Source of the DNA: Mycobacterium stomatepiae | Lineage (GTDB): Bacteria > Actinomycetota > Actinomycetes > Mycobacteriales > Mycobacteriaceae | Length of the DNA: 64,000 nt | Assembly (NCBI RefSeq): GCF_010731715.1 | Contig: NZ_AP022587.1 | Span: forward strand, 5,580,001-5,644,000 | Reading direction: 5' to 3' | Shown: positions 3,096 through 44,604 of the stretch, one piece after another | Numbering within the stretch: the first letter of the stretch is position 1 | How the letters are laid out: each line of letters opens with the position of its first letter | Notes under the pieces: generated by a model | The model's database searches: none | Seen by the model: the letters and a program-made list of their open reading frames with translations, nothing else | Told to the model about the DNA's origin: nothing | Program-made: the position numbers and the translations under genes

Positions 3096-3187
3096 CAGCG
3101 CTCCTCCTGAGCAACCGGTAAGGCCGTTGACGCGGGCCGGTCCTGACCGCCCCGGCGTCTTCGGCGGGTGTGTCCGAGTGGATTTTC

Positions 3188-3207
3188 GCTATCATAGTAT
3201 AAATAGC
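3188..3207. promoter_or_regulatory. AT-rich inverted repeat, candidate operator/promoter
   Basis: GCTAT, ten bases, ATAGC in the divergent region between the P450 and Rieske-amidohydrolase operons. It contains the 18-bp sequence CTATCATAGTATAAATAG that recurs, in degenerate form, upstream of other catabolic genes in this window. The TATAAAT part could also serve as a -10 element. Confidence 0.5.
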
Positions 3208-3277
3208 AAGGCTTGTGATGGTTACCGTAACGGGCTCAGTATTGATCTTGGTAGGTTCAGGAGGCGGTGATTCTCAA

Positions 3278-3637
3278 GTGGCCCAGCGGCGATTCGTGTG
3301 CTTCCTCGACGAGCTGCCGCCCGGCGAGATGAAACTCGTCGACATCGGCAAGTTCGGCGTGGGCGTGTACAACGTGCGCGGCGCCCTGTACGCGATCGTG
3401 AACTACTGCTCGCACGAAGGCGCCCCGCTCTGCCTGGGTCTGCTCGGGGGCACCACCGAGTCGGCGCCGGAGGCACCCGGCGGGATACGCCGGGTGCGCG
3501 ACGGACAGATCGTCCGATGCCCTTGGCACAACTGGGAATTCGATATCACCACCGGGCAGAACCTCGCCGACCCAAAGCGCCGCGTGCGGACTTACCCGGT
3601 CGACGTCACCGACGAAGAAGTGTACCTCACCGCATGA
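3278..3637 (+). CDS. Rieske [2Fe-2S] ferredoxin-like protein
   Basis: A small (119-residue) Rieske-domain protein. I start it at GTG 3278 because an AGGAGG lies at 3259-3264; the longer frame from 3215 would add a hydrophobic, non-conserved leader that spans this ribosome-binding site. Cluster ligands are C44-x-H46 and C81-x2-H84. The spacing between the two ligand pairs is 34 residues, about twice the usual 16-18, because of a Gly/Glu/Pro-rich insertion. It may carry electrons to an oxygenase or P450. Its stop overlaps the start of the following amidohydrolase (ATGA), so the three genes of this operon are coupled. Confidence 0.82.
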   Translation: MAQRRFVCFLDELPPGEMKLVDIGKFGVGVYNVRGALYAIVNYCSHEGAPLCLGLLGGTTESAPEAPGGIRRVRDGQIVRCPWHNWEFDITTGQNLADPKRRVRTYPVDVTDEEVYLTA

Positions 3638-4689
3638 GCCCCATGGTTATAGATACCAATGTGCAGCCGCACTTCCGCTACAACGCCGAGATCCGGCGCT
3701 ACCTCCCCGACGTCCATCGACTGCGCGCGATCCCCGATGTCGAGCAGCAGTGGTATCAAGCCCCGGGCGGCGACTACCGACAAGACCTCTACGGCGAGCA
3801 CTACCCGGGATCGGATCCCGAAACCCTGAGTCGCCACGTGCTTGAAGACTCCGGGGTTGACTACGCAATCTTGAACCCGTTGACGCGCGGCAACATCGCC
3901 GATTACCTGCTCAACAGCAGGATCTGCGCCGCGGTCAACGACTGGCTGCTCGATCGCTGGCTCGAGCCCGACACCACCGACCGGTTTCGGGGCACCATCC
4001 GGGTCAATCCCGAAGACCCGCGCGGCGCGGTCGCCGAGATCGAACGGCTGGCCGATCATCCGAAGCTGGTGCAAGTCGGTGTTCCGATGCAGTCGCGCGA
4101 GCCGTACGGCAAGCCGATGTTCGAGCCCATCTGGGAGGCCGCCGCGGCGCACGGACTGCCCGTCGCGGTGCACATCAACGGAGGCAACGGCGTCGACTTT
4201 GCGCCCACCTTCGCCGGACACGCGCACACCTACCCCGGATACGCGGCCTTCATGCCGCTGAACTACTTCGTGCATCTGTCCACGCTGATCGTCGAGGGCG
4301 TGTTCGGCCGGCTCCCCGGACTGAAATTCGTCTTCGCCGACGGCGGCTACGACATCCTCACCCCGTTGCTGTGGCGGCTCGACACGTTCTGGCTGTCGAT
4401 GCGCGACCAGACCCCGTGGGTAGACCGCTATCCCAGTGAGTACCTGCCGGGCCATGTCCGGTTCTGCTCGTCGGCATTCGACGGGCCACCCGAGGCGAGC
4501 CACACGCAGCGCTGGATGGAGTTCAGCGGCAAGTCGGAGCTGTTGATGTACGGGTCGAGCTATCCGCACTGGTCCGCGTCGCCGCCGGCGGCGCTGGCCG
4601 AAAACCTCGATGAAGCCCAGCGCGAGAAGGTGTTGTGGCGAAACGCGAGTGAGCTTTACGGGCTTGGAGCAAGGGAGCGAGCGCAATGA
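3634..4689 (+). CDS. Amidohydrolase-2 family protein lacking metal ligands (probable pseudoenzyme)
   Basis: A TIM-barrel amidohydrolase (PF04909/ACMSD-like) of 351 residues, starting at the ATG that overlaps the Rieske stop. Two of the family's metal ligands are replaced: the N-terminal DxDxH motif reads D7-T-N-V-Q11, and the strand-8 SDYPH motif reads S308-S-Y-P-H312, so the catalytic Asp is Ser309. The strand-5 and strand-6 histidines appear retained (VAVHING, NYFVHLS). The next gene is a full-length paralogue with every ligand intact. I infer a non-catalytic partner subunit or an unusual activity. Members of the family act as decarboxylases or hydrolases on carboxylated substrates. Confidence 0.8.
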   Translation: MSPMVIDTNVQPHFRYNAEIRRYLPDVHRLRAIPDVEQQWYQAPGGDYRQDLYGEHYPGSDPETLSRHVLEDSGVDYAILNPLTRGNIADYLLNSRICAAVNDWLLDRWLEPDTTDRFRGTIRVNPEDPRGAVAEIERLADHPKLVQVGVPMQSREPYGKPMFEPIWEAAAAHGLPVAVHINGGNGVDFAPTFAGHAHTYPGYAAFMPLNYFVHLSTLIVEGVFGRLPGLKFVFADGGYDILTPLLWRLDTFWLSMRDQTPWVDRYPSEYLPGHVRFCSSAFDGPPEASHTQRWMEFSGKSELLMYGSSYPHWSASPPAALAENLDEAQREKVLWRNASELYGLGARERAQ

Positions 4690-5849
4690 CCACGATCGAA
4701 CGAGTCGAATCGCAAAACGGCCATGACGACCACTTCGCGGTCACCATCGTCGACACCGACGTGCACCCCTTGCCGGTCTCGACCGATGTGCTCAAGTCGT
4801 ATGCACCGGCGGAGTGGGTGGATCAGATCTGGCCGACCGGGAATGCGGTCAGCCCGATGTCGTATTTCTACGACACCCCGGATTCATTCAAGACGTCGTC
4901 GCTGCGGATGGACTCGTGGCCGCCCAACGGGGGAGTCGCGGGCAGTGACCCGGACTACGCCGCCCAGCAGCTACTGGTCGATGCCGGCGTCAGCATCGCG
5001 TCGCTGGAGCCGATGTGCGACGCGCAGCTACCGCAGGCCGAGCACGTGCTGAAGTCCACGTACAACGATTGGCTCGCCGACGTCTGGCTGGACAAGGGCA
5101 ACACCCACGGCCGCTGGCGCGGCTCGATCAGCGTCAGCGCGCAGACGCCGGAATACGCCGCCCGCGAAGTCGAACGCTGGGCCGGACATCCCTACATGTC
5201 CCAGGTGCTGATGACGCCGCAGACCCGCGGAATCCCTTTCGGCAACCCGCATTTCGATCCGCTCTACGAGGCCGCGTCGCGCAACGGGCTGCCGATCTCC
5301 ACCCACCTGATGGGTCAGACACCGTTCGAATTGATCCCGCTGTATCCGGTCGGCAATCCCGCGCACTGGCACGACTTCTTCGCGTCGTGGCCGCTGCTAT
5401 ATGTGTCGCATCTGATGAGCCTGGTGTTCGACGGCGCGTTCGACCGGCACCCCGATCTGCGGGTGGTGTTCATCGAGGGCGGCTTCACCTGGGCGATGCC
5501 GGTGATGTCACGAATGGACCGGATCTGGGAAGCCTGCCGAGCCGATTTGCCGCAGGTGCGACGCCGTCCGTCGGACTATGTGCGCGAGCACGTTCGCTTC
5601 ACCACGCAGCCTCTGGAAGACGTCGACACCGTCGAGTTCCGCGAGTATCTGGACATGATGGACCTCGGCGACAATCTCATGTTCTCGACCGACTACCCGC
5701 ACTGGAGCTATGACTCGCCGACGTACGCGATCAACCGGTTCCCCGCCGACCAGCGGGAGCGGATCATGCGCGGCAATGCGATGGCCCTGTACGGGTTGCC
5801 GGCGACCGTGCGGGCACTGCCGGGCGAGACCGTCAGCCGGGACGGCTGA
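4686..5849 (+). CDS. Amidohydrolase-2 family metal-dependent hydrolase/decarboxylase
   Basis: A 387-residue PF04909 protein with the complete metal site: D23-T-D25-V-H27 at the N-terminus, a His in ISTHLMG, a His in YVSHLMS, and D336 in STDYPHW. It starts within the stop of the preceding degenerate paralogue (ATGA overlap). The operon order is Rieske ferredoxin, inactive paralogue, active paralogue, which suggests a hetero-oligomeric enzyme. Proteins of this group in mycobacteria are uncharacterised; by analogy with ACMSD a non-oxidative decarboxylation or C-N/C-C hydrolysis is possible. The substrate is unknown. Confidence 0.85.
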   Translation: MTTIERVESQNGHDDHFAVTIVDTDVHPLPVSTDVLKSYAPAEWVDQIWPTGNAVSPMSYFYDTPDSFKTSSLRMDSWPPNGGVAGSDPDYAAQQLLVDAGVSIASLEPMCDAQLPQAEHVLKSTYNDWLADVWLDKGNTHGRWRGSISVSAQTPEYAAREVERWAGHPYMSQVLMTPQTRGIPFGNPHFDPLYEAASRNGLPISTHLMGQTPFELIPLYPVGNPAHWHDFFASWPLLYVSHLMSLVFDGAFDRHPDLRVVFIEGGFTWAMPVMSRMDRIWEACRADLPQVRRRPSDYVREHVRFTTQPLEDVDTVEFREYLDMMDLGDNLMFSTDYPHWSYDSPTYAINRFPADQRERIMRGNAMALYGLPATVRALPGETVSRDG

Positions 5850-5852
5850 GTC

Positions 5853-9479: not shown

Positions 9480-9486
9480 TCGCGGG

Positions 9487-12188: not shown

Positions 12189-13394
12189 TCAGGCCGAGAC
12201 CGGCTTCTTGGCCGGCTCGGCGACCTTCATCAGCTTCATCAGGTTGCCGCCCATGATCTTGGCAATGTCTTCCTGGCTGAAGTCGGTGAGCTCGTCGACG
12301 AAAGTGATCGGGTCCTTCAGGCCTTCGGGGTGCGGCCAGTCCGAGCCGAACAGCACCCGGTCGGTACCCACCATGTTGACGATCTCGGTGAACCGGTCCT
12401 CCCAGAACGGGGTGATGTAGACGCACCGCTTGAACGCCTCGACCGGATCCTCGGTGAACGACTGCGGCATCTTCTTGTAGACGCCCTTGAGGCCCTTGAA
12501 CAGGTCCGGCACCCAGTCGGCGCCGTTCTCGATGGACAGGATGCGCAGCTCCGGGTTGCGCGACAAGGCGCCGTGGCAGACCAGGGCACCCATTGCGTCC
12601 AAGATCGGTCGATGGCCCATCGCGAAGCTGCGGAAGGCCGTCGGCTTGAACGGCAGGAACTCGTCTCCGGGCTCCCACACGTTGGCGAATTCCGAGTAGC
12701 CGCTGTCCGACGCGTGCATCGAGACCGGTATCTCGGCCTTGATTCAGGCCTGCCAGAACGGGTCGAATTCCTCCAGGCCGAACGACCGGCTGCCCTTGTA
12801 TCCGGGCACCGGGGCCGGGCGGACCAGCACGGTCCGAGCGCCGCGCTCCAGGCACCACTGCAGTTCCTCGAGGGCGCGGTCGACGATCGGCAGGGTGATC
12901 ACCGGGGTGGCGAAAATGCGGTCCTGGTAGTTGAACGACCACTGCTCGTGCATCCACTCGTTGAGCGCGTGGATGACGTCGTGGGTCATCTCCGGGTCGT
13001 CCTTCATGCGCTCTTCGACCAGGCTGGCCAGCGTCGGGAACATCAGCGCGTAGTCGATGCCCAGCTCATCCATCACTTCGAGGCGCGCACCCGGCTCGCG
13101 GAAGGCGGGGATGGCCTTCATCGGCTCGCCGAGGATCTCGCGGTAGCTCTTACCCTGGGCGCCGTTGCGGAAGTAGTCCTCTTGGGAGCCGGGGCGGGCG
13201 ACCACCTCGAACGTCGGGTTGGGGATGTACTCGCTGATGTGGCCGCGCACCACGATCTTGGTGCGGCCGCGAACCTGCACGTAGTCGATCACGCGCTTGC
13301 GGTTCTCCGGGAGGAACTTGGTCAGCGCCTCCTGCGGCTCGTACATGTGGTTGTCGGCGTCGAAGACGGGGAAGGGAAGCTCGCGCGAGGGCAT
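12189..13394 (-). pseudogene. Amidohydrolase-2 family protein interrupted by in-frame TGA
   Basis: A continuous frame from ATG 13394 (AAGGAG 7 bases upstream) to 12189 encodes about 400 residues of a PF04909 amidohydrolase, interrupted only by TGA at 12744-12746 (codon 217, between DPFWQA and IKAEIPVSMHASDSG). The metal ligands are intact on both sides: FDADNH near the start, H in SMHAS, and GSDWPHPEG near the end. This is a point nonsense change in a recently functional gene, or a sequencing error. Selenocysteine is conceivable at a UGA but nothing in the sequence supports it. The gene follows a TetR-type gene and has a palindrome just upstream, so it was probably controlled by that regulator. 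Confidence 0.85.
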
Positions 13395-13426
13395 AGCGAT
13401 CTCCTTGAGGGCTGGATTCTCATTCG

Positions 13427-13445
13427 GTGGTAATAACGTTACCAC
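13427..13445. promoter_or_regulatory. Inverted repeat, candidate operator of the TetR-hotdog regulator
   Basis: GTGGTAA, five bases, TTACCAC, with an inner TAACGTTA palindrome, 33 bp upstream of the amidohydrolase start and downstream of the TetR gene. Size and symmetry suit a TetR-family operator. Confidence 0.55.
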
Positions 13446-13470: not shown

Positions 13471-14493
13471 CTAGTTGTCCGTCCGGAGACCCTTGGGTGT
13501 CGCGCCGTTGATGATGGCGAAATTCACCGTCGCGGTGGCGGCGAGTTCGTAGTCGTCGCCGAAAATGTCGACCTGCATGACCATCGCCCGCCGGCCGGCG
13601 CGCAGCATCCGGGGCACCGCTCGCGCGCCCTGCCGGATCGGCCGCAAATAGCGGACGAACAGGTCGGCGGTCGTCATCGTGGTGCCTTCTTGCAGGTAGT
13701 CCAGGCCGAACTGGCCACCGGCCACGTCGACGAGGGTGGCGATCAGGCCGCCCTGCAAGGCCCCGGAGGAGTTGACCACGTTCGGGCTCACCGGCATCGT
13801 CATCGCGAACTCGCCGTTGTGGGAGCCCGCGCGCATGCCGATCTGGGCGAACAGTTCGGCCAGCGACGGCGTGCCGGTTTCGTCGTCGATGTCCCGGATG
13901 CCTAACGCGCGGCTGCAGAAGTCGTAGAGCTGGCCGGTGTCGACCGGAGTGCCGTTCAGTTCGGCGCCCAGCCAGTGCAGCCGCTGCGCTCCCATCACCG
14001 TCTGCATGACGATCGCGGCCGACGCACCGACATCGAGCGCCGGGTTGAACACCCCCTCGGTGATGCCCTGTCCGACGATGTCGCGAATCAGTTGATACAA
14101 GGGGGACAGCACGCGGGCGTATTCGCGGGGCCGCGTATCGGCCAGATGCTGGTTGTAGAGACCCAGCGCCCGGTTGAGGCTGTCCTGGGTGCTCGATTCC
14201 GGTTGCTGGCTGATCCGGTCGATCACCAGCTTCAGTGCCGCGGTGCTGTCCAGGCCGGCGGCTTCGGCGCGCCAGGCCAGCACCGACTGCGAGATGGTCC
14301 TGTCGAACAGCGCCAGCAGCAGTTCGTCCTTGCTGCCGAAATGCTGGTAGAAGGCCCGCAGTGACGTCTTGGAGCGGGCGACCACCTCCTGCACGGTGAA
14401 GTCGGTGCGCCCAGTCTCGCCCAGAATTTCCACGGCCGTCTTGATGAACCGATCGCCGCGGGTCACTTCGGCTTCGTCGCTGGGGGCGGTCAT
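13471..14493 (-). CDS. TetR-family regulator fused to a hotdog thioesterase-like domain
   Basis: A 340-residue protein. Residues about 15-60 form a TetR DNA-binding domain (TVQEVVARSKTSLRAFYQHFGSKDELL) and the helical ligand domain runs to about 200. The last 125 residues resemble PaaI/hotdog acyl-CoA thioesterases, with the fold's signature SSGALQGGLIATLVDVAGG and then TTADLFVRYLRP. Ordinary TetR proteins are about 190-220 residues, so this is a genuine fusion. I infer that the hotdog domain senses or hydrolyses an acyl-CoA ligand and that the protein regulates the adjacent amidohydrolase through the palindrome at 13427-13445. Confidence 0.85.
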   Translation of the reverse strand: MTAPSDEAEVTRGDRFIKTAVEILGETGRTDFTVQEVVARSKTSLRAFYQHFGSKDELLLALFDRTISQSVLAWRAEAAGLDSTAALKLVIDRISQQPESSTQDSLNRALGLYNQHLADTRPREYARVLSPLYQLIRDIVGQGITEGVFNPALDVGASAAIVMQTVMGAQRLHWLGAELNGTPVDTGQLYDFCSRALGIRDIDDETGTPSLAELFAQIGMRAGSHNGEFAMTMPVSPNVVNSSGALQGGLIATLVDVAGGQFGLDYLQEGTTMTTADLFVRYLRPIRQGARAVPRMLRAGRRAMVMQVDIFGDDYELAATATVNFAIINGATPKGLRTDN

Positions 14494-28971: not shown

Positions 28972-29844
28972 TTAGGACTGCCGCAGATCCCGCGGGCGTG
29001 GCCCCGAACGAGAAAGAGACTGCGGCGACAACGCATAGATCCGTTGCGCCGGCCGACCGGCCAGCACATAGGTCTGCGTATCGGCGAGGTGACGACCCGC
29101 GATGCGCCGAGCCCGGTCGACGTCGCCCTCCGCAATGGTCTCGGCGAGCTTGACATGCGTGTTGAGCACCGCGCGCCGCTGCGCCAGCGAGGGGTAGGTG
29201 CCACGCGCCGCGCTCTCGTCGGCCCACTGCTTTTCGTGGCTGCTCCACAGCGTCTCGAGGCTGCCGACGACCGCGATGATGGTGTGATTTCCGCAGCCCT
29301 GCACGATGAGATCGTGGAATTGGCGGCCAATCTCGGTGAACAGGCGCCCGTCGTCGAGGTGCTCGGCCATGGAATCGTTGACCTGCTTGAGTTCCGGCAC
29401 GAGGGTGTCCGCCCGGTCCGGCCGCTGAGCCGCCAGCGCGGCGCACGCGGGCTCGAGCTCCTGCAGTGCCATGCCGAGGTCGGCGACTTGAACGGACTCG
29501 CTCTGCAGCAACAGGCCGAGCATGTAGGCCGCGCTGGTCTTGGCGGGTGCGTGCACGACGGCGCCGCCGCGGTTACCGCGGCGCACCGAGACCAGGCCCT
29601 CGGTCTCGAGGATGCGCAGCGCTTCGCGCAGCGAGACCAGGCTGACGTTGAACTGTTCGACGAGTACTTCCTGGCGCGGCAGCAGGTCGCCGTCGGCAAG
29701 CTCGCCGTCGATGATCTGGCGACGCAATTCGTCGGCTACGATCTCGGCGATCCTCGGCGCCGACAACCGGCGACGGGCATCGGGACCAATTCCCAGAGCG
29801 GGCATCCAATCCTCGCAGTCGCGGCAGGGAGAGCTTCGCGGCAC
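28972..29844 (-). CDS. GntR-family (FadR/FCD subgroup) transcriptional regulator
   Basis: A winged-helix GntR domain (about 28-95, with LRRQIIDGELADGDLLPRQ and SLVSLREALRILETEGLVSVRRG) is followed by an FCD ligand domain (about 110-250), whose metal/ligand residues include D and H in FTEIGRQFHDLI and H in AEGDVDRARRIAGRHL. Total length is 290; ATG 29805 (MPALGIG) is an equally good start. Family members are repressors that release DNA on binding a carboxylate or acyl-CoA. An AT-rich box lies in the 85-bp divergent gap to the CoA-transferase gene, so autoregulation is likely. It is a candidate regulator of the other boxes. Confidence 0.9.
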   Translation of the reverse strand: MPRSSPCRDCEDWMPALGIGPDARRRLSAPRIAEIVADELRRQIIDGELADGDLLPRQEVLVEQFNVSLVSLREALRILETEGLVSVRRGNRGGAVVHAPAKTSAAYMLGLLLQSESVQVADLGMALQELEPACAALAAQRPDRADTLVPELKQVNDSMAEHLDDGRLFTEIGRQFHDLIVQGCGNHTIIAVVGSLETLWSSHEKQWADESAARGTYPSLAQRRAVLNTHVKLAETIAEGDVDRARRIAGRHLADTQTYVLAGRPAQRIYALSPQSLSRSGPRPRDLRQS

Positions 29845-29869: not shown

Positions 29870-29898
29870 GCTATTTTAGCAGTAATGATATAAATAGC
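29870..29898. promoter_or_regulatory. Shared AT-rich box between GntR/FCD gene and CoA-transferase
   Basis: The region GCTATTTTAGCAGTAATGATATAAATAGC has GCTAT/ATAGC ends and includes CAGTAATGATATAAATAG (29880-29897), 13 of 18 matches to the box at 3189-3206. Its position next to a regulator gene suggests an operator. Confidence 0.5.
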
Positions 29899-34399: not shown

Positions 34400-35638
34400 T
34401 CAACGCCGTGCGGTCAGCGAGATCGCCATCTCGTCGTAGATCGACATGTTGGTGGTCAGGTTGGGATACGACACCGTGGCGGGCCCGATTTCGAGGCGAT
34501 CGCAGCGCAGCAGCAGCTCATCGAGCACCGCCCGCAGTTCGGCGCGCGCCAGCATCGCACCCAGGCAGTGATGTGGCCCGCCGCCGCCGAACGCGACATG
34601 CGGGTTGGGCTACCGGCCGATGTCGAAGGTGAACGGGGACGCGAACACCTCCTCGTCGCGGTTGGCCGAGCGCAGCATCGACACCACCCGATCGCCCGCG
34701 GGAATCTGCTGGCCGTCCATCTCGACGTCGACCTTCGCGGTGCGCGTCCAGTACGCCACGGGTGACGCCCAGCGCAGCACCTCCTCGACGGCGCTGGGGC
34801 GCAGCGCTTCCTGCTCGCGATAGCGCTCGATCTGCTCCGGGTTGGCGACGAACGCCTGCAGCCCCATGGCCAGTGCGTTTTTGGTGGTGTCACTGCCGGC
34901 GAAGGCCAGCACGAAGAAGAAGAACTCCAGCTCGTTTTCGGGCAGGCTGAACTGCTCGCCGTCGTCGCCGGTGATCACCGCGGACGCCAGCGTGCTCCAG
35001 ATGTAGTCGGTCGGGTTGCCCCGCTTGTCGGCAGTGAGCTCCATCGCGTACCCGAAGACCGATGCGAAGAGCTCGAGTTCTACCTGCCCGCTCGGGCTCG
35101 CCTCGGGCGCAAGCGCCTTCAGGATGCGTTCGAAGATGTCGAAGATTCGCGGCCGGTCCTCGTCGGGGATGCCGATGATGTCGCCGATCACCGTCATCGG
35201 CAACGCGTCCGCGACGTCCTCGATCCAATCCCCGCCGCCCTTGGCGAGCAGGCCGTCGATCATCTGCGCCGCGCGCGCCCGAATGCCATCCTCCAGCTTG
35301 GCGATTGCGCGCGGAGTGAACGCGTTCGAGATGAGCTTGCGGCGCTTGTTCAGCTCCGGCGGGTCCAGCGTGATGATCGTCGGGTACGCCGAAAACATGG
35401 CGACGGGCTGGATCAGTGGCCCGTCGCCCGCGGTGAACGACTCGGTGTCGCGGTGCAGCCGAACCGCGTGCCGGTGTTTGGTTGCCACCCAGAAATCGCG
35501 GTGTACGGTCTGGGCCACGCCCGGCGTCAGCTCGTGCCGGAAAAGCGGCCTGTCATGCCGTAATTCGGCGAACAAGTCGTCGGGAAAACCGTTACGCCAC
35601 AAGGCGAAATCGGATAGGTCCTCTGCCGCAGCAGTCAT
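34400..35638 (-). pseudogene. Cytochrome P450 interrupted by in-frame TAG
   Basis: A frame from ATG 35638 to the stop at 34400 encodes a 412-codon P450, broken by TAG at 34610-34612 (codon 343). The upstream part has AGSDTT in the I-helix and EEVLR as EXXR. The heme-binding loop lies only after the stop (PNPHVAFGGGGPHHCLGA), so the truncated product cannot bind heme. Before the stop the sequence is FTFDIGR; relatives usually read GRQPNPH, so CAG to TAG is likely. The upstream AT-rich promoter region is shared with the divergent Rieske oxygenase gene. Confidence 0.9.
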
Positions 35639-35701
35639 GCGCAACTCCGCTCGCTTTGCCAACACGCGGCGACCGGCTGACGCCGCGTTGACGTTCAATG
35701 A

Positions 35702-35719
35702 TTAAAATAGTAAGAATAG
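35702..35719. promoter_or_regulatory. Shared AT-rich box in the P450 / Rieske oxygenase divergent promoter
   Basis: TTAAAATAGTAAGAATAG, 13 of 18 identical to the 3189-3206 box, centred between two divergent oxygenase genes. Confidence 0.45.
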
Positions 35720-35763: not shown

Positions 35764-36888
35764 GTGGGAAACGGAGTTCTCGTGAATACGATTCCAGAGC
35801 CAGACCCGTCGGAACGTGAGTTCGGACCGTCCGGCATCGCGCTGTCCACGTATCGGTTCCCGACGGGGTGGTTCATCGTCGCCTTCGCGAGCGACGTCAA
35901 GCCCGGCGACGTCAAGCGCCTGCACTACTTCGGCGAGGAATTGGTCCTGTTTCGCACCGCGTCCGGCAAGGTCAGCGTGCTGGACGCGTACTGCCAGCAC
36001 CTCGGCGCCAACATGGGTGTCGGCGGCACCGTCGAAGACGAAAACATCGTCTGCCCCTGGCACGGCTGGCAGTGGCGCGGCGACGGCAGCAACGCGCTGA
36101 TCCCGTACAGCAAGATCGGATGCAAGAACAACGTCCGCATCCGCACCTACCCGACCGTGGAGTGGTACGGCTTCATCCTGGTCTGGCACGAACGCCACGG
36201 CCGCGCGCCCTACTGGCAACCGCCGGCGCTGCCCGAACTGGAAACCGGCGAGTACTACCCGCTGCACCCACACAGCCGGATGCTCAACCGGGTCAAGGTG
36301 CATGCGCAGATGATCATCGAGAACGCGGCCGACCCCTATCACGTCCAGTACGTGCACAAGGCCGCCAACCCGGCCAACACCGCCTCGTTCGAGGTGGCGG
36401 GTTATCACCTGCACGCCACCGTCAACGCCCACTTCGGCGGCGGCCGGGCCAAGACGTGGTTGACCCCCAACGGGCCGGTCGACGCCAAGATCATCTACGA
36501 CAACTACTCGTTGGGGCTCGGACTCGTCCGGTTCCCGAGTGACCTGGTGGCCACCATCGAGGTCACCGGGCAGACCCCGGTCGACGAGGACTACACCGAC
36601 TACTTCTACACACAGGCCTCGGTCCGCGAACCCGGCGACACCGGCGACCAGCCGACCGGCCGGGCCGCGAAATTCCTGGCGCTGCAACAAGAGGTCATCA
36701 AACAGGACTTCTTCACCTGGGAGAACATGAAGTACCTGGAGAAGCCGAACCTGGCTCCCGAGGAGGCACACGACTACGCGGCCCTGCGCCGCTGGGCGCA
36801 CCGCTTCTACCCGGGGACGGAGCCCTCACCCAGCGACTTCGGGTACACCGCCGCAGGTGAACCCGACCCGGCGGCCGCGAAAGCCTAA
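35764..36888 (+). CDS. Rieske oxygenase, KshA-like (3-ketosteroid 9alpha-hydroxylase type)
   Basis: A 374-residue Rieske non-heme iron oxygenase. Rieske ligands C77-x-H79 and C97-x2-H100; mononuclear iron site D190, H193, H198 in ENAADPYHVQYVHK. The segment VLDAYCQHLGANMGVGGTV and the overall length resemble KshA, the terminal oxygenase of mycobacterial ketosteroid 9alpha-hydroxylase. It needs a reductase (KshB-type), which is not encoded nearby. It starts at GTG 35764, with GTG 35782 as an alternative. It directly abuts an AMP-ligase gene (GTG one base after its stop), so the two are coupled. Confidence 0.85.
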   Translation: MGNGVLVNTIPEPDPSEREFGPSGIALSTYRFPTGWFIVAFASDVKPGDVKRLHYFGEELVLFRTASGKVSVLDAYCQHLGANMGVGGTVEDENIVCPWHGWQWRGDGSNALIPYSKIGCKNNVRIRTYPTVEWYGFILVWHERHGRAPYWQPPALPELETGEYYPLHPHSRMLNRVKVHAQMIIENAADPYHVQYVHKAANPANTASFEVAGYHLHATVNAHFGGGRAKTWLTPNGPVDAKIIYDNYSLGLGLVRFPSDLVATIEVTGQTPVDEDYTDYFYTQASVREPGDTGDQPTGRAAKFLALQQEVIKQDFFTWENMKYLEKPNLAPEEAHDYAALRRWAHRFYPGTEPSPSDFGYTAAGEPDPAAAKA

Positions 36889-38478
36889 GTGGCACAGATT
36901 CATTCGGTTCGTGGCAAGCCCCTTGGGCCGTCCGATTTCGGCGTGGACCGCTTCACCGTCCCGGCCGTGCTGGATCGCCGGGCCCAGCAGTACCCCGATC
37001 GCGTGATGATGTCGATCGCCGGCACCGAGGTGACATTCGAGCAGATGCGCCGGCGCTCGCGCGCGGTCGCCGACCTGCTGCGCGAATTCGGGGTGGGGCG
37101 CGGCGACGGCGTGGCGTTGTTCACCGGCACCTGCCCGGAATGGGTGTACTTCTGGCTGGGCGCGGCCCGCATCGGCGCGGTGAGCGCGGCGGTCAATGCC
37201 GCCAACAAGGGGGACTTCCTCGTGCACACCCTGCGGTTGTCGCGGGCCAAGGTGATTCTCACCGACGCCGAGCGCCGTGCCCGCGTCGACGAGGTCGCCG
37301 ACCGGCTGGACGCGGTGACCGACATTGTGGTGCTGGATGATTCGCTGAGCCACGCGCTTATGCGCGAGGCCGGCTGTGTCGACGATCCCGGGGAGCCCGA
37401 CGAGGTCGGGGCGCTGTTCTACACGTCGGGCACCACAGGGCCATCGAAAGCCGTTGCCACGAGCTGGAATTATCTGTTCTCGGTCGCCGCGACCGTGGTG
37501 TCGTCCTGGGAGTTGCGGCCGGGGGAGGCGTTGTGGACGGCGATGCCGCTCTTCCACCTGAGCGCCGCGCCGAGCGTGCTGGCCCCAATGCTGACCGGTG
37601 GGACAACCGTGCTGGCGCAGTCCTTTCACCCCGGCCAGGTGTGGGACGACATCCGCGCCCACGACGCAGTCGGCTTTGCCGGGGCCGGCGCGATGGTGTC
37701 GATGCTGTACAACCTGCCCGCCGATCCGCGCGACGCGCAGCTGCCGCTGCGGTTCATCTCCGCCGCGCCGATCGACGCCGGTTCCTACCACGACATCGAA
37801 AAGCGCTACGGCTGACGCATTGTCACGATGTACGGGATGACCGAAGCCTTCCCGATCGCGGTCAAGGGGGTGGCCGACGAGGGCGTTCCCGGAACGTCGG
37901 GCCGGCCCAATCCCAACTTCGACGTGCGCATCGTGGACGACGGCGGCAACCCGCTGCCCACCGGCGAAGTAGGTGAGATCGCCTGCCGGCCCAGGCACCC
38001 GCACGTGATGAGTGAGGGCTACCTCGGCCGCGACGGCCAGGTGGACCCGCACCCGGAATGGTTTCGCACCGGAGATCTCGGCCGGCTCGACACGGATCAG
38101 AACCTCACATATCTGGATCGCATCAAGGATTCGCTGCGCAGGCGCGGTGAGAACATCTCCTCGGTCGAAGTGGAGCGCGTCGTCATGGGTCATCCCGCGG
38201 TGGCTGAAGCCGCTGCGGTCGCGGTGCCCAGCGAACTCGGCGAGGACGACATCCTGATCGTGGTGGCGCTGCGCCCGGACGCCGCCCTGGATTGCGCCGA
38301 GTTGCTCGACTTCTGCGCCGCCCGGATGCCGTACTTCTGCGTGCCCCGATACGTCGAGCAGGTCAACGAACTCCCAAAGAACGTTATCGGACGGGTGCGT
38401 AAAGATTTACTACGAGCCAAGGGTTTGAGTTCCGGGGTCTGGGATCGAGAAGAATACGGATATATTGTTAAGCGCTAA
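36889..38478 (+). pseudogene. AMP-dependent acyl-CoA synthetase interrupted by in-frame TGA
   Basis: A frame from GTG 36889 to 38478 encodes a 529-residue ANL ligase broken by TGA at 37813-37815 (codon 309, between DIEKRYG and RIVTMYGMTE). The upstream part has the AMP-binding loop ALFYTSGTTGPSKAV. The downstream part has YGMTEAFP, WFRTGDLGRLD, RIKDSLRRRGENISS and the catalytic Lys region LPKNVIGRVRKDLL. Both halves are well preserved, so the change is recent or a sequence error. It directly follows the Rieske oxygenase gene and probably activated the hydroxylated acid product or its precursor. Confidence 0.88.
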
Positions 38479-38539: not shown

Positions 38540-38965
38540 ATGACGTTGTCCTACCAGCAGGAACAGTTCCTGCAAGCCGCGACCGGACGCGATGCGATCT
38601 TGAATTTGAACGCCCGGCACAATCGCGCTTACTCCGACGGCGACCGCGATAGCTGGATCGCGACGTTCCGTCATTCCGGTGCCAGCTTCGTGCGGGGCGG
38701 TGAACTGTTTGCCGATCTGCGTTTGGCGTTCGATGGCGGCGAAGGACAGCGCCTGGTGACAATCGATCACGAGATCGCCGTCGAGGGGGTCCACGCGATG
38801 CAGCGTTGTGTTGCCGTGCTTTTCTCGGCAGCCTTCGGCGACACCACGTTGCGCGCCACCGGGACATACCGGGATGAGCTGATCTACGAGCGTGGCGGCT
38901 GGTACTACACGTCGCGCAACCTCTCCTGGGATCTGGTGCCCAGCCGGCACCCGCTTGTCATGTGA
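38540..38965 (+). CDS. SnoaL-like (NTF2-fold) protein
   Basis: A 141-residue NTF2-like protein with LNARHNRAYSDGDRDSWIATF near the N-terminus (an Asp/Asn/Trp-rich pocket helix), TIDHEIAVEGVHAMQRCVAVLF and a final TGTYRDELIYERGGWYYTSRNLSWD sheet. This pattern resembles the small subunits and SnoaL_4 proteins found next to ring-hydroxylating or dehydratase genes. It might be a hydratase/isomerase or a structural partner. Its stop overlaps a GTG that would begin the next gene, suggesting coupling. Confidence 0.8.
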   Translation: MTLSYQQEQFLQAATGRDAILNLNARHNRAYSDGDRDSWIATFRHSGASFVRGGELFADLRLAFDGGEGQRLVTIDHEIAVEGVHAMQRCVAVLFSAAFGDTTLRATGTYRDELIYERGGWYYTSRNLSWDLVPSRHPLVM

Positions 38966-38978
38966 GCGACACCGATAC

Positions 38979-39506
38979 GTGGATCGTGATCTCAGCTACG
39001 AATTAGCCTTCGGCACATACGAAGACGCGCTGCGCATGGTCGGTGCGACAAGCGAACCGCGGACCGCGGTGAATCCGGTCAGCGGGGCGCGCATTCAGTT
39101 GTATGCCTCGATGATTCACGACGGCAATCGTTCGTACTGGGACCGGGATTTCGCGCGGGAGCGGTGGGGAGGCCTGCTGGCCCCGCTGGGTCTGTTGATG
39201 GGCTGGCTGATACCCCCGCCGTGGGAGCCCGGCGGCCGGCGCGCGGCGTCGCTGATCTTGCGTGTGCCGTTGCCGGGCACCACATTCATCAATGCCGCCA
39301 ATGACGTCGAGTTCCTGGAACCGATCGTTGAGGGTGACGTGCTGACCAGTGTCGAGGAATTGGTGTCGGTCTCACCGGAGAAGCAGACCCGGTTGGGGGT
39401 AGGGCATTTCATCGAGACGTTGGAGACCTACCGCCGTGAGGACGGGACCGTCGTCGCCCGATCGCGAAATACGTTGTTTCGCTTCACCCCGGGAGCGCCG
39501 GCGTGA
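38979..39506 (+). CDS. MaoC-like hotdog subunit (N-terminal dehydratase type)
   Basis: About 175 residues of a MaoC/FAS1-DH-like hotdog protein: AFGTYEDALRMVGATS, the helix around GLLAPLGLLMGWLIPPPWEPGG and LPGTTFINAANDVEFLEPIVEGDVL, which is typical of (R)-hydratase N-terminal domains. The N-terminus is uncertain. GTG 38979 is the first in-frame start, but the GTG coupled to the upstream stop (38962, reading VSDTDTW) is in another frame that ends after 14 codons, so a small indel near 38985 is possible. It is followed by a C-terminal-type MaoC gene with a 4-bp overlap, as in heterodimeric enoyl-CoA hydratases such as ChsH1-ChsH2. Confidence 0.75.
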   Translation: MDRDLSYELAFGTYEDALRMVGATSEPRTAVNPVSGARIQLYASMIHDGNRSYWDRDFARERWGGLLAPLGLLMGWLIPPPWEPGGRRAASLILRVPLPGTTFINAANDVEFLEPIVEGDVLTSVEELVSVSPEKQTRLGVGHFIETLETYRREDGTVVARSRNTLFRFTPGAPA

Positions 39507-39949
39507 CCGCTGCGGATCTGGACTGGAACGAGATCACCGTTCCCGTCGAGCTGCCCGAGGTGGTCGATGAGATCGGCTACCAGCGGGTGGTGGAGAACGC
39601 CGGAGCGACCTGGGACTATTTTCCGGGCCACTTCGATCCCGAATACGCCCAAAGTCAGGGAAGCCCAACGATTTATCTCAACACCATGCATTTGGCCGGA
39701 TTCGCCGACCGGGTCGCTACCGATTGGGCGGGGCCGAGCAGTCGGGTGGTGCGCCGGTCTTTAAGGCTGGTGAGTTCCGTCTACGCCGGTGACACGATGA
39801 TCGGCCGGGGCCGGGCCGTGGCCAAGCGGCGCGACGCATCGGTGGACCCACCGCGCTACCTGGTCGAGATCACGATCGAAGTGACCAACCAGCACGGGGC
39901 ACTGTGCTGTCCGGTCGAGCTCACGTTGCAACTGCCCGAACGTGTTTGA
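39503..39949 (+). CDS. MaoC-like dehydratase/hydratase subunit
   Basis: A 148-residue hotdog protein starting at GTG 39503, inside the stop of the preceding gene. The hydratase-2-like active-site segment appears as ATWDYFPGHFDPEYAQSQGSP, where canonical MaoC has D-x-N-P-x-H. Here Asp and His are both present (W-D-Y-F-P-G-H) in the variant form seen in ChsH2-like subunits. HLAGFADR and the strand RRSLRLVSSVYAGDTM follow. With the upstream hotdog protein it probably forms a heteromeric enoyl-CoA hydratase. Some 260 bases follow before the convergent aldehyde dehydrogenase; I see no convincing gene there. Confidence 0.8.
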   Translation: MTAADLDWNEITVPVELPEVVDEIGYQRVVENAGATWDYFPGHFDPEYAQSQGSPTIYLNTMHLAGFADRVATDWAGPSSRVVRRSLRLVSSVYAGDTMIGRGRAVAKRRDASVDPPRYLVEITIEVTNQHGALCCPVELTLQLPERV

Positions 39950-40212: not shown

Positions 40213-41679
40213 TCATAGCGGCGGCAGTTGTCCCTTGCACACCAGCGTCTGAAGTTCGACGTACTTGTGGAGGCCCTCCGGGCCGAATTCGCGCCCGATG
40301 CCCGACTGCTTGAAACCCCCGAAGGGGGCGCCGATATCGAGCGTGTACATATTGATGCCGTAAGTGCCGGTGCGCACCCCTGCGGCGACCTCCAGGCCGT
40401 GCGCGATGTCCGACGTCCACACCGAACCAGCCAGTCCGTAGTCGGTCTCGTTGGCGATCCGGATCGCGTCGGCCTCGTCGCGGTAGCGCAGCACCGTCAG
40501 CACCGGGCCGAAGATCTCCTCCCGGGCGATGCGCATGTCGTTGGTGGCGTCGGCGAATAGCGTTGGCCGCACGTACCATCCGCGATCGGTCGGGCTGTCC
40601 TCACCGCCCAGCACGACGCGTGCGCCCTCGCGTTTCCCGGACTTGATGTAGTCCTGAACCCGGCGCTGTTGCCGTTGGGCCACCAGCGGGCCGATGTCGG
40701 TGGCCTCGTCGGCCGGGTCGCCGACGTTCAGCGACGACATCATGCCGGCCAGCGCGTCGACGACGTCGTCATGACGCTTGTCGCTGACCAGGATGCGGGT
40801 CTGGGCGACACAGGCCTGGCCGTTGTTCATCAGGCCGGCCGACTTCAACCCCGCGACCGTCTTGTCGATATCGGCGTCGTCGAGAATGATCGCCGCGGAC
40901 TTCCCGCCCAATTCCAGGCTCACTCGCTTGAGCTGCTCTCCGCACAGCGTGGCGATGCGGCGCCCGACCGCACTGGAACCGGTGAACGCTATCTTGTCCA
41001 CGCCGGGGTGGCGGACCAGCGCCTCGCCGATTTCGGGTCCGCCGGGCAGCACCGACACCACGCCTTCGGGCAGGTCGAGCTGCTCGATCATTTCGGCCAA
41101 CCACAAAGCGTCCAAAGGTGTTTCGGGGGCCGGTTTGAGGATCACCGTGCATCCCGCGATCAAAGCCGGGATCAACTTCGGCATGATCAGGAACTGAGGA
41201 ACGTTCCACGGCACGATCGCGCCTACCACCCCGACCGGGGCCCTGCGCAGGTGCACCTCACCGAGGACGCCGTGGCGGCGTTCCGTCCAGGGAAACGCGC
41301 GGGCGTCCGCGAGGGTGAGATGGATCATCGTCGCCGCGGCCGCCGCTTGGCCGAGTCGGCTGAAGGTGCGCGGGGATCCCATTTCTTCGGTGATCAGGTC
41401 GGCCATCTCGTCGATGTGCCCGCCGTAGATCCCGGCCAGCTGTTCGACTTTGGCCATCCGTTCGGCATGGGTCATGCGCGGCCACGGGCCGTGGTCGAAG
41501 GCCTGGCGCGCCGCGGTGACGGCGGCGTCGAGGTCCTCGGGCCCGGCCACCTGAACGTGGCCGACCGGTTCCTCCGAATGCGGCGAAATCACGGCCAGCT
41601 GCTGCGGATTAGCGGGCTTGCGCCACTGCCCTCCGACGAAGAGTTCGGCATAGGTCCGATGGTCGGATTTTTCTGTCAT
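40213..41679 (-). CDS. Aldehyde dehydrogenase, NAD(P)-dependent
   Basis: A 488-residue ALDH superfamily member. Catalytic Cys290 in [11 protein letters not shown] and general base Glu256 in LELGGKSA are intact. The NAD-binding GSSAVGRRI, the cofactor-anchoring IVPWNVPQF and the C-terminal [14 protein letters not shown] are all present. It would oxidise an aldehyde to a carboxylate in the surrounding catabolic set, for example after P450 or alcohol dehydrogenase action. It is divergent from the CrtC/AttH-like gene across a 101-bp region with an AT-rich box. Confidence 0.93.
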
Positions 41680-41724
41680 CGGGGCGCTTCCTTGGGACGG
41701 GGATGAGGCCGTGACCGTAACTTC

Positions 41725-41752
41725 GCTATTGACGCTAACATAGCAAAGAATA
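41725..41752. promoter_or_regulatory. Palindrome plus shared AT-rich box in the ALDH / CrtC-like divergent promoter
   Basis: GCTAT, ten bases, ATAGC at 41725-41744 has the same arms and spacing as at 3188-3207. It overlaps CTAACATAGCAAAGAATA (41735-41752), which is almost the same as the box at 27342-27359. Confidence 0.55.
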
Positions 41753-41780
41753 AGGATAGCGCCGTGGCAAGGAAGCCGAT

Positions 41781-43133
41781 ATGAACACCGATTGGCGCAG
41801 GTACCCGTATCAGCTGGTGCCCGGTGACGACCAGCTGGATTTCCCCGAGGCCGAGGGCGAACACCCCGACCAGGAGTCCGACACCTGGTTCATCGCCGGA
41901 CAGTTGCAGGCCGTCGAGAGCGACCGGTCGTTCGCGTTCCTGACCATCTTCAACAAGAACCAACCCGGGGGGACCGTCGTCGCCGACTTCTACACGATGG
42001 CGCTGTTCGACCTCGACACCGGCGATTACGGCACCTACACCGATTACGACATGCCGCCGAAGAACATGGAGCCGGGCGCGCAGCGCAAATTGTTCATGGC
42101 CGCAGGCTATCTCGACATCAGCTATCAGAGCAGCGTCGGTACCGCGTCGTGGACCACCTGCCGTGACGCCGACGACCAGTTGCTGCCCTACACCTATCGA
42201 GTCAGCCTGGTCGGCCGGGATCACCAGGGACGGTCCATGCGGCTGGACTTGGTCGTCACCCCGACGCGCGCGCCGACGCCGGTGGGGGCGTCGACCTACA
42301 ACGGGAAGATCACCTGCTTCGGTCAAGACGACACGTATTCGTATTTCCAGAGCGGGATGTCGATGACCGGGACGCTACGCTGGGGCGAGACGGTCGAGCA
42401 GGTTTCCGGTAGCGCCGGACATGTCGACCGGCAGTGGTTTCCGAAGTATGCGGGCGGCGGCGGAAGCGGGGGAGACCCGCGGGCTCGCTCGCACGAATGG
42501 CGGACTATCAATTTCGACAACGGCGTCGACCTCAGCATCTGGCGGCAGTTCGACCGGACGAATGGCAACGCGTTGCAACCCTTTACCGGTGTGACGACGA
42601 GTCATCCCGATCCCGCCATCGCGCCGGAGTGCGCCGAGGACGTGGAGGTCACCGTGAGCAGCTATGTGCGCTGGCCACTTACCGTGCGTCCGCTGATGCG
42701 CCCGCTGGCCCCGGCTCGGTACATGCCCGACCGGCACCGGATCACCTGCGCCACACTGCAACTGGACCTCATCGGCGAGCCGCTGGTGCCGGCCCCGGCA
42801 CATGGTCTGCCGATCGAGTACATGGAAGGCCCGTACCGCTACCAGGGGACGTTATGGGGAAAACCCGTGAGCGGCTTCGCCTTCAACGAGCGTTCGCTGG
42901 CCATGTATCGGGACTGGGAATTGGTGGAGGTGCTGGCCACCACAGTGGCCGACGTCGATCCCGGCCTGCAGTCGGTGGTCGATCAGCTGGTGGGATTGGT
43001 GGCCGCGGGACGTCGCGGCGCAGCCGTGGAATTGTTGGCCGGGATGCTTCCCGTGCAAAACGACACGTTGGCAACGCTTCTCGAAGATTTGATCGCCGTG
43101 CTGTCCCAGGAGGACTCAGCCGACGGAAGCTGA
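41781..43133 (+). CDS. CrtC/AttH-like lipocalin-fold protein (putative hydratase)
   Basis: A 450-residue protein whose body matches the AttH/CrtC (hydroxyneurosporene synthase-like) double-lipocalin pattern: DTWFIAGQLQ with SFAFLTIFNK near the start, then SGSAGHVDRQWFPKY, SHEWRTINFDNGVDLSIWRQFDR and IEYMEGPYRYQG in the C-terminal half. The H-x-D-R-Q-W motif is the family's hallmark. CrtC hydrates carotenoid double bonds; the mycobacterial proteins are uncharacterised and may act on terpenoid or steroid-like substrates. No signal peptide is visible. It is convergent with the Rieske oxygenase, with an 18-bp overlap. Confidence 0.7.
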   Translation: MNTDWRRYPYQLVPGDDQLDFPEAEGEHPDQESDTWFIAGQLQAVESDRSFAFLTIFNKNQPGGTVVADFYTMALFDLDTGDYGTYTDYDMPPKNMEPGAQRKLFMAAGYLDISYQSSVGTASWTTCRDADDQLLPYTYRVSLVGRDHQGRSMRLDLVVTPTRAPTPVGASTYNGKITCFGQDDTYSYFQSGMSMTGTLRWGETVEQVSGSAGHVDRQWFPKYAGGGGSGGDPRARSHEWRTINFDNGVDLSIWRQFDRTNGNALQPFTGVTTSHPDPAIAPECAEDVEVTVSSYVRWPLTVRPLMRPLAPARYMPDRHRITCATLQLDLIGEPLVPAPAHGLPIEYMEGPYRYQGTLWGKPVSGFAFNERSLAMYRDWELVEVLATTVADVDPGLQSVVDQLVGLVAAGRRGAAVELLAGMLPVQNDTLATLLEDLIAVLSQEDSADGS

Positions 43134-44267
43134 GGCGGCCAGCGCCTCGGCCCACGTGATGTGGCGGTGCTGCAGCCCCGGCTCGTTGCGGCCGAACACC
43201 AGGTGATCGCGTGCGCCCGACATGAGATTGGCCTGCAGGCCCTCGACCAGCCGGTAGTCTTCGTCGCGCACCGTCGCGTGCGCGTACTCGAACACGGCTT
43301 GCGCGCCGGCCGCCACCGATTCCTCCGAAAGGTCCAGCGGCGTCGAATTCTGGTGCACGGTAATCGATCTGCCGGGCTCATCGCCGGGGTAGATACGGAA
43401 CAGCTCGCCGTTGGCGATCGTCACCGACAGCACGATGTTGGGGAACAGCGCGTAGATCACCACCATGTTGTGGAACGGGTCCCACTGCTCCTCGGGAACA
43501 TTCTCCAGCTCCAGGATCGCGTTGAGCGGGAAGATCAATCGGTGGTGGGGCCCGTAGGAATCGAAAACCGCGCAGTTGCTGCGGGCGATGGTAGCGAAGG
43601 TGTCGCGGTGCACGGTGGCGAAGTGGTAGTTCTCGGCGAAGGTGTCGACGGCCAGCTTCCAGTTGATCGGGGCGTCGAGCACCTTCTCGCCCAACGGAGA
43701 CCAGCGGCCGATGCCCCACGAGTCGAGCTCGTCGGCCAGCGGCCCTAGGTGCGCGGCAACGTCCAGGGTGGCGTCCTTATCCAGTGCCACCCAGAGGAAC
43801 CCGGCGAACTCGGCGGCGGGCAGTTCGGTCAGTGAGTCGGACTTGACCGTCGCGTCCGGGAAGCCCTCGCGACCCGGCAGGCCGACCAGCTTGCCGGTGT
43901 TGTCGTAGGTCCACGCGTGATAGGGACAGCTGAACCGCTTCGCGGTGCCGCAGCCGGTCACGACGGGCGACTGGCGATGCAGGCAGACATTGTCGAACGC
44001 CCGGACCACCTCGTCGGAGGTTCTGGTGAGCAGGATCGACCGCCCCATCACCGTCTTGGTGCAGTAGGCGCCGGGTGCCGCGAGCTCCGAGACGTAACCG
44101 ACGAGTTGCGGGCTGGCGAGCAGCAACGCCCTGTCACTGAGGTGGCGCTGCATCGAGGTGTAGTCGCTGGCGTCGACCGTGTGCGGTCGCGGAGCCAGGT
44201 CGGTGGTCTTGTCGCGGGCCAACTTCAAGGCCCGTCGGGTCAGGTCGATGAGCTGGTCATGGTCCAT
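43116..44267 (-). CDS. Aromatic-ring-hydroxylating-type Rieske oxygenase, alpha subunit
   Basis: A 383-residue Rieske oxygenase with ligands C95-x-H97 and C114-x2-H117 (the usual 16-residue spacing) and an iron-site motif FAENYHFATVH giving His215 and His220. It resembles the single-component alpha subunits that demethylate or hydroxylate carboxylated or choline-like substrates rather than KshA. No ferredoxin, reductase or beta subunit lies next to it, so it must use electron donors encoded elsewhere. Its 5' region carries one of the AT-rich boxes. Confidence 0.88.
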   Translation of the reverse strand: MDHDQLIDLTRRALKLARDKTTDLAPRPHTVDASDYTSMQRHLSDRALLLASPQLVGYVSELAAPGAYCTKTVMGRSILLTRTSDEVVRAFDNVCLHRQSPVVTGCGTAKRFSCPYHAWTYDNTGKLVGLPGREGFPDATVKSDSLTELPAAEFAGFLWVALDKDATLDVAAHLGPLADELDSWGIGRWSPLGEKVLDAPINWKLAVDTFAENYHFATVHRDTFATIARSNCAVFDSYGPHHRLIFPLNAILELENVPEEQWDPFHNMVVIYALFPNIVLSVTIANGELFRIYPGDEPGRSITVHQNSTPLDLSEESVAAGAQAVFEYAHATVRDEDYRLVEGLQANLMSGARDHLVFGRNEPGLQHRHITWAEALAASASVG

Positions 44268-44604
44268 CCGAAGCCCCTTGTGCCGCTAACTTTGTAAAGT
44301 TAATAGTGACAATAACAATGGACTCCGCGACCTGGATCGGCGGCATGGACGAGGCGCTTCCGTGCCGCGGCCGTCGAGTGCGCGCTGGCGGCGCGATTTC
44401 GGCGCTTTTGCCGCCCTGGACGCGCACTGAACGCCGTAACGCAACACCTCGACGGCGGAGGAGGCCGAATCGGCGCTCAGCAGCGTGGTGACCGCGCCGC
44501 CGCACCGCCAAACTCCAACGACAAACAGCTCCAACGAGATGTGATCGACCTGTGATCAGCGTGACTGATGTGTCTATTGATGTTTGTGTCGTACCCTGTG
44601 CGAT
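44268..44604. promoter_or_regulatory. Intergenic region with AT-rich box between Rieske oxygenase and Rv2525c-like gene
   Basis: 337 bp without a gene. AGTTAATAGTGACAATAA at 44298-44315 is the weakest match to the shared AT-rich box (10 of 18) and lies just upstream of the Rieske oxygenase start. The rest is GC-rich and I see no further hairpin, repeat or coding pattern. The divergent promoter of the Tat-exported protein must lie in its right half. Confidence 0.4.

Follow-up and report, generated by a model that had tools for sequence, protein, structure and literature searches.

Conserved AT-rich boxes suggest a local, autoregulated GntR/FCD regulon in a catabolic gene cluster of Mycobacterium stomatepiae

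Background

Can a set of oxygenase, CoA ligase, CoA-transferase and acyl-CoA dehydrogenase genes, dispersed over some 40 kb of a mycobacterial chromosome, be governed by a single switch? This question is raised by a 64,000 nucleotide stretch of the Mycobacterium stomatepiae genome (GCF_010731715.1, contig NZ_AP022587.1, positions 5,580,001 to 5,644,000), hereafter the window, which represents approximately 1 % of a single-contig genome of 6.21 Mb with a GC content of 67 %. A preliminary description of this DNA had reported related AT-rich 18-mers in six intergenic regions and considered them the mark of a local regulon. In the KstR-type regulons of mycobacterial steroid breakdown, a single regulator controls oxygenase, fadE and fadD genes through scattered operators; regulators of this type belong to the TetR family and have a different operator. 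On the basis of comparative sequence analysis, the boxes in the window are here interpreted, with a probability of approximately 0.75, as the operators of a local, autoregulated regulon under the control of the GntR/FCD regulator encoded at 28972–29844 on the minus strand.

Six box regions and their flanking genes

Divergent cluster genes flank five of the six box regions. Site 1 (CTATCATAGTATAAATAG; 3189–3206), which with one extra base on each side forms a GCTAT-N10-ATAGC dyad, is located between a cytochrome P450 gene (minus strand) and a Rieske-ferredoxin-like open reading frame (ORF; plus strand, 3278–3637), the latter being the first plus-strand gene and followed by an amidohydrolase. 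Site 2 (CTAACATAACAAAGATAG; 27342–27359) separates an acyl-CoA dehydrogenase (minus) from a luciferase-like (LLM) oxidoreductase (plus), while site 3 (29870–29897), which incorporates GCTATTTTAGC (29870–29880) and CAGTAATGATATAAATAG (29880–29897), lies between the regulator gene gntR (minus) and a CoA-transferase (plus). Site 4 (TTAAAATAGTAAGAATAG; 35702–35719) occurs between a second P450 (minus) and a KshA-like Rieske oxygenase (plus), and site 5 (CTATTGACGCTAACATAG; 41726–41743) between an aldehyde dehydrogenase (minus) and a 450 amino acid (aa) protein (plus). The weak and tentative site 6 (CTAACTTTGTAAAGTTAA; 44286–44303) is found upstream of a ring-hydroxylating oxygenase (minus), in a region shared with an Rv2525c-like protein. 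The boxes are situated approximately 3 to 93 bp from the predicted starts of the listed ORFs.

Each of the six 18-mers first reported was present exactly, and once, at its reported start. Likewise, the two GCTAT-N10-ATAGC dyads could be located at site 1 (core 3189–3206) and site 5 (core 41726–41743), and the box said to stand beside a GntR/FCD regulator is that of site 3. The original registers of sites 5 and 6 were dropped after footprinting in favour of the dyad register, as given above. Two further short words were observed near the boxes, namely GTTACCGTAAC downstream of site 1 (3221–3231) and ACCGTAAC beside site 5 (41714–41721); the latter occurs three times in the window and is kept near site 1 in a number of relatives.

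Conservation of the boxes in relatives and distant loci

Footprinting, which for sites 2–4 was based on the named loci, the best 80 of 124 relatives found, compared identity across the 18 bp box columns to that across 20 + 20 flanking columns. The own-genome copy was subtracted from the counts of relatives, with the identity rows of sites 1, 5 and 6 still containing one. Footprints were evident at sites 1–5 in 29 to 80 relatives per site, with box/flank identities of 0.95/0.51, 0.89/0.75, 0.94/0.68, 0.91/0.74 and 0.95/0.58, respectively. At site 6, the string already described as the weaker one, box identity is 0.57 against 0.48 in the flanks. Footprinting supports sites 1–5 and not site 6, and of the six regions originally grouped as one set, the first five hold as conserved elements while the membership of the sixth is doubtful.

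The P450/ferredoxin region (site 1) was anchored using ORF 3298–4689, of which about 112 N-terminal codons stem from an out-of-phase reading of the Rieske-ferredoxin frame, an anchoring that nevertheless served. The site is identical in 14/29 aligned relatives and a further seven differ by a single G-to-A change, giving CGCTATCATARTATAAATAGCAA in 21/29 with R at the variable position. In the fadE/LLM region (site 2), 78/80 named loci could be aligned; most of these 78 relatives retain CTAACATAATAAARATAGTAAACTAGC, and the commonest form is CTAACATAATAAAAATAG (45/76 distinct rows). The gntR/CoA-transferase region (site 3) of the 80 named loci incorporates a conserved block around CTTAGCTATTTTAGCAGTAATGRTATAAATAGC, with the extended core, allowing two one-base variants, present in 67/80 and CTGCTAARATAGCTAA in 73/80. 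For site 4, 55/80 named loci could be aligned and YTAARATAGTAAAAATAG was observed in 51 of the 53 distinct rows they provide. The site 5 18-mer is identical in 16/29 aligned relatives, and CGCTATTGACGCTAACATAGC or close variants occur among the matches listed for the aldehyde dehydrogenase region. Site 6 is identical in no relative, with CTAACTTTATAAAGTTAA found in 2/27.

Twenty loci of more distant genomes of the genus, presumably fast growers, were fetched because the regulator is present (the distant loci) and were scored with a position weight matrix built from sites 1–4 and their variants in relatives, with all distant-locus sequences (G121 included) left out. At least one match with a score of 22 or higher was found in 19/20 of these loci, and the best match is CTAAAATAGTAAAAATAG or CTAAAATAGTAAAGATAG in 17/20. 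The former also occurs at the promoter corresponding to site 4 (P450/Ksh) in L193, L202 and L204. In L193 and L204, as in the window, strong boxes are found in both the Ksh/P450 and the amidohydrolase/P450 regions, while the CTAT-N10-ATAG dyad of site 5 is retained in L193, L194 and L204. The compact cluster of L193 further contains CTATGTTTGTATTAATAG between the 450 aa protein and aldehyde dehydrogenase genes, and CTATCATTATAAAAATAG upstream of the ring-hydroxylating oxygenase, the gene of site 6. Relative to its flanking genes, the amidohydrolase/P450 box of L193 and L204 has the opposite orientation to that in the window, which would be expected if it is an operator and not a strand-specific promoter element.

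Architecture and specificity of the element

The shared element can be written as CTAW-N10-WTAG, often with a nested CTA-N3-TAG. When CTAW-Nk-WTAG was surveyed for k = 0 to 15, peaks were observed at k = 10 (three in the window, none in 400 kb of host background and 43 in the 20 distant loci) and k = 1 (three, none and 34, respectively), which together give CTA-N6-CTA-N3-TAG-N6-TAG. This fullest form amounts to two overlapping 18 bp dyads offset by 9 bp. It is complete (12/12 half-site bases) at two promoters, in L192 and L193, while the other nine regions scored are partial, with 8–10 of the 12 bases. Of 2000 random 60 bp windows, three reach nine bases and none ten; as the sites were picked before the half-site bases were counted, this count is descriptive and not a test.

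Specificity was evaluated with the matrix against a 400 kb background taken from elsewhere in the host genome, and with patterns across the whole genome. All thirteen matrix matches in the window scoring above 9.1 fall inside the six box regions. Sites 1–4 score 27.1–32.7, which is circular given that they are training material, and the background maximum is 20.6, with no background match at 22 or higher. At this threshold, three matches per locus were found in 69 and two in 11 of the 80 named loci, a partly circular result as their variants are included in the matrix. Of the nine matches of the pattern ATRRTAWARATAG, allowing up to one mismatch, in the whole genome, the window contains five, among them the only two exact ones; two of the five overlap at site 4. 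The reversed control pattern has seven matches. Since ATRRTAWARATAG was derived from these sites, this reflects specificity and not independent enrichment. The site 5 string in its original register has no second match in the genome with up to three mismatches.

Co-occurrence of box and regulator

In a set of 148 genomes from the genus, the host genome among them, the regulator was scored as present at 60 % identity or higher, and the box as CTAWMATWRTAWARATAG with up to one mismatch, a pattern designed on regulator-bearing genomes. Both are present in 72 genomes and neither in 74, with one genome containing only the regulator (G088) and one only the box (G114); the reversed control of CTAWMATWRTAWARATAG matches in a single genome. 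The Fisher value of 3.6e-40 for this distribution ignores shared descent and is not readable as a probability. In the 3.2 Mb genome G088 (L229) the regulator is in two pieces, fadE and LLM give fragmentary matches, the weakened boxes score about 20, and the regulon appears to be decaying. No cluster protein was found near the G114 box, which was taken as a chance match. The 450 aa protein is encoded in 60/148 genomes (E 1e-100), with the box present in 60/60. Thirteen genomes have the regulator and lack this protein at the same threshold, yet 12/13 have the box, which thus follows the regulator more than the 450 aa gene.

The association extends to the promoter of the regulator gene itself. 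Using a matrix without site 3, the median upstream score is 17.4 for the 80 named loci and 14.45 for 28 others of at least 60 % identity, whereas thirteen more distant paralogs give 2.9 and 400 random windows −1.2. The best upstream scores for the more distant FCD paralogs (45–53 % identity) range from −4.9 to 9.9. GTCCAC words were observed upstream of nine of the thirteen distant paralogs, some perhaps in coding sequence. In L030, L032, L037, L041 and L230 the CoA-transferase gene is kilobases away, yet the box remains with the regulator, and regulator copies beside other genes in L205 and L236 retain such boxes. An operator-like, conserved box thus stands before the regulator gene and its neighbouring operons at sites 1–5, while site 6 is doubtful.

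The GntR/FCD regulator and its relation to known systems

The proposed box-binding protein combines a GntR winged-helix domain (Pfam, 5.1e-17) with an FCD domain (3.3e-20), both past the cut-off, as is characteristic of the FadR/FCD subfamily. It shares 98 % identity with its M. ahvazicum counterpart over residues 10–290. Among 151 genomes of the family, seven match it at E 1e-70 or better, all in this genus, while weaker relatives (47–49 %) are found on Rhodococcus and Novosphingobium plasmids. The nearest solved relative is NanR (E 1.5e-11), although the protein falls outside the NanR family, with 83.5 bits against a cut-off of 260 for the NCBIfam NanR model and boxes that are symmetric and not direct GGTATA repeats.

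Operators of the FadR subfamily follow the rule TKGT-N3-ACMA, the arginine at helix-turn-helix (HTH) position 28 (FadR Arg-35), the commonest residue at this position in the subfamily, prefers G, and the ligands are carboxylic acids and the like (PMC4494728). Alignment to NanR and LldR places Glu59 at FadR position 28 and Leu69 at the recognition-helix arginine of NanR/LldR. In 139 close-relative rows, some species being represented twice, position 28 is occupied by Glu in 131 rows and by Asp, Lys or Ala in the other eight, while Leu69 is present in 139/139 rows covering that site (three further rows lack the region). The boxes, if they are the operators of this regulator, show CTA-N3-TAG or CTAW-N10-WTAG and no GT-N3-AC core. 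The occurrence of TA for GT at the same 3-nt spacing matches the absence of the arginines, a correspondence that is suggestive.

The putative operators resemble those of the FadR subfamily in the combination of a GntR and FCD regulator with a 3-nt dyad centre (CTA-N3-TAG) and in the placement of a site common to divergent genes, one of which is the regulator's own. They differ in having TA/TA for GT/AC, with Glu59 and Leu69 replacing arginines, and in the outer half-sites, 9 bp away, which some boxes add. NanR and BioR are known exceptions to the GT-N3-AC rule (PMC4494728). The Escherichia coli NanR operator, (GGTATA)3, is an AT-rich repeat outside this rule, bound by three cooperating dimers (PMC8012715), and provides, in the nearest solved relative, a precedent for multi-dimer binding; its repeats are direct, whereas the boxes here are symmetric, and the half-sites differ. 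The BioR operator is TTATMKATAA (PMC4494728). BioR similarly belongs to the FadR subfamily and has an AT-rich dyad that departs from the family rule. The BioR dyad is, however, shorter, with a 2-nt centre, and the target genes are others. The targets of BioR are biotin genes. No description of the operator found here was recovered in the open-licence literature searched, outside of which many journals fall.

Proposed mechanism and alternative explanations

The local regulon first proposed draws its sequence support from the footprints at sites 1–5, the boxes at matching promoters in distant loci and the tracking of the GntR/FCD regulator; the existence of the boxes, their conservation at sites 1–5, their specificity and their co-occurrence with the regulator can all be read from the sequences compared. 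Binding by this protein, repression in preference to activation, occupancy by two dimers and the class of ligand are what we infer beyond this. A GntR/FCD dimer would recognise the AT-rich dyad CTAW-N10-WTAG. As the boxes cover or adjoin the -10-like sequences of divergent promoters, near the gene starts, the protein would more likely act as a repressor, by occlusion, and would most likely keep RNA polymerase from transcribing either way, the regulator gene itself included. The ligand of the FCD domain, in view of the subfamily ligands probably a carboxylate or acyl-type compound, would be an intermediate of the pathway; it would cause the protein to leave the DNA, and the oxygenase, CoA ligase, CoA-transferase and acyl-CoA dehydrogenase genes would be induced jointly. 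More tentatively, and with doubt prevailing, a mycobacterial FCD branch lacking the two GT/AC-reading arginines may occupy CTA-N6-CTA-N3-TAG-N6-TAG, an array of four half-sites, with two dimers that overlap, and control an uncharacterised breakdown pathway that includes the 450 aa protein. If true, the four-half-site array would be the symmetric counterpart of the repeated NanR operator.

Several observations weigh against the regulon under this regulator. Sites 5 and 6, which are outside the matrix, reach 13.7, while five background matches score 13.5 or higher; on matrix score alone these two sites are not beyond chance, and the case for them rests on other evidence. The loose CTAW-N10-WTAG occurs at 17 places in the whole genome, 14 of them outside the window (scores −4.1 to 12.8); its reversed control is commoner (80). 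Three of the outside dyads (11.4, 11.8 and 12.8) rival that of site 5 (12.6), and the dyad alone is thus not diagnostic; further regulon members may exist among these three. The last of the three, CTAATCTAAGATGATTAG (C1:5652794-5652811; matrix score 12.8), lies about 9 kb past the window end. The consensus fit of sites 3 and 6 is poor, and the gntR/CoA-transferase promoter of the distant loci fits loosely, with most scores between 10 and 16. Upstream of the regulator copies in L206, L207 and L237, scores of just 6.6–7.0 and 10.2 were obtained. Neither the regulator copy (82.6 % identity) nor the Ksh-fadD pair of an M. branderi plasmid has a box scoring 12 or higher within 12.8 and 12.6 kb, respectively. 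On this plasmid (pJCM12687; L238, L239; 864 kb) the regulator homolog is about 344 kb from the Ksh-fadD pair. Inheritance of the whole cluster also predicts co-occurrence, much of which could stem from shared descent, and the 148 genomes are not independent. Finally, the thirteen more distant paralogs likewise lack both arginines, with Asp at position 28 and Lys, Tyr or His at the Leu69 site, so the link between arginines and operator remains only suggestive.

It is unlikely that the boxes are the operators of another regulator, whose gene lies elsewhere and is inherited along with the cluster. Several points speak for such a regulator: only neighbourhood and co-occurrence link the GntR/FCD protein to the boxes, the box has no canonical GT-N3-AC core, and the window also encodes TetR-type proteins (13471–14493 and 60408–61064). 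However, no regulator other than the GntR/FCD protein was found among those genes of the compact L193 cluster that could be identified, some boxes stay with its gene when the neighbours change, and the absence of the two NanR/LldR arginines from its DNA-reading part fits an unusual operator. That the boxes are merely divergent core promoters, alike through AT-rich -10 elements, is improbable. They do contain -10-like words on each strand (TATAAAT, TATGTT and TAAAAT), the gntR promoter includes TGCTAAAATAG, and since the boxes overlap such sequences, a predicted operator on top of promoters is a more accurate description than an element that is not a promoter. A generic -10 region had been set beforehand as the finding that would refute a regulon; it is disfavoured by the rarity of the box elsewhere in the host genome and its absence from 74/75 genomes without a close regulator relative, and spacing that peaks exactly at N10 and N1 and the flipped P450/amidohydrolase box argue against it further. 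The AT-rich islands in a genome of such high GC content might also be envisaged as patches where a nucleoid protein binds and silences genes of foreign origin, which conservation at the level of single bases, a constant spacing and the almost one-to-one pairing with a single regulator render highly improbable. Control by the GntR/FCD regulator remains the preferred interpretation.

Genes of the cluster

The genes flanking the boxes, assigned by Pfam unless otherwise indicated, point to a catabolic function. On the minus strand upstream of site 1, a cytochrome P450 (1869–3095) is followed by an alcohol dehydrogenase (715–1872). The Rieske-ferredoxin-like ORF on the plus strand was recognised by a CSH...CPWH pattern read by eye in the translation, and two amidohydrolases (Amidohydro_2; about 3634–4689 and 4686–5849) are encoded beyond it on the same strand. 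Site 2 is flanked by the acyl-CoA dehydrogenase (fadE; 26258–27334, minus), with a second one at 25152–26261, and by the LLM oxidoreductase (27394–28272, plus). The CoA-transferase at site 3 is a family III protein of 796 aa (29930–32320, plus). At site 4 are found a P450 of 362 aa as read, with an uncertain start (34610–35698, minus), and the KshA-like Rieske oxygenase (35764–36888, plus; KshA_C and Rieske domains, KshA structures 1.5e-32). These are followed on the plus strand by an AMP-binding acyl-CoA ligase in two ORFs (36889–37815 and 37828–38478) and by SnoaL_4-type, FAS1-dehydratase-type and MaoC-type proteins (38540–39949). The aldehyde dehydrogenase (40213–41679, minus) and the 450 aa protein (41781–43133, plus), which has no Pfam, NCBIfam or PDB match, border site 5, and the ring-hydroxylating oxygenase alpha subunit is encoded at 43116–44267 (minus).

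The split acyl-CoA ligase (36889–38478) and an amidohydrolase (12189–13445), each in two ORFs, suggest broken genes or frame errors. One of the TetR-type proteins (13471–14493, minus; 340 aa) combines an N-terminal TetR DNA-binding domain with a C-terminal 4HBT thioesterase domain, an unusual fusion of regulator and enzyme that is matched in L230 and L231 at 83–86 % identity. A 1481 aa P-type ATPase (15158–19603, plus) separates cluster genes whose counterparts in L193 are near each other. An ORF (33048–33845, minus) with an HTH_38 domain, a type linked to IS30, is located between cluster genes and is possibly part of an insertion element.

Conclusions

The putative operator set described here is of an ordinary kind; what sets it apart is the operator sequence, together with the residues expected to recognise it. 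A cluster comprising two P450s, Rieske oxygenases, a CoA ligase, a CoA-transferase and acyl-CoA dehydrogenases would be tied to a single switch acting through a single operator; this would predict cluster members in other species and can be directly tested with short pieces of DNA. It may further represent a natural case in which both the DNA-reading residues of an FCD regulator and the core of its operator have left the family rule, and such a case would be useful for the question of how GntR specificity changes.

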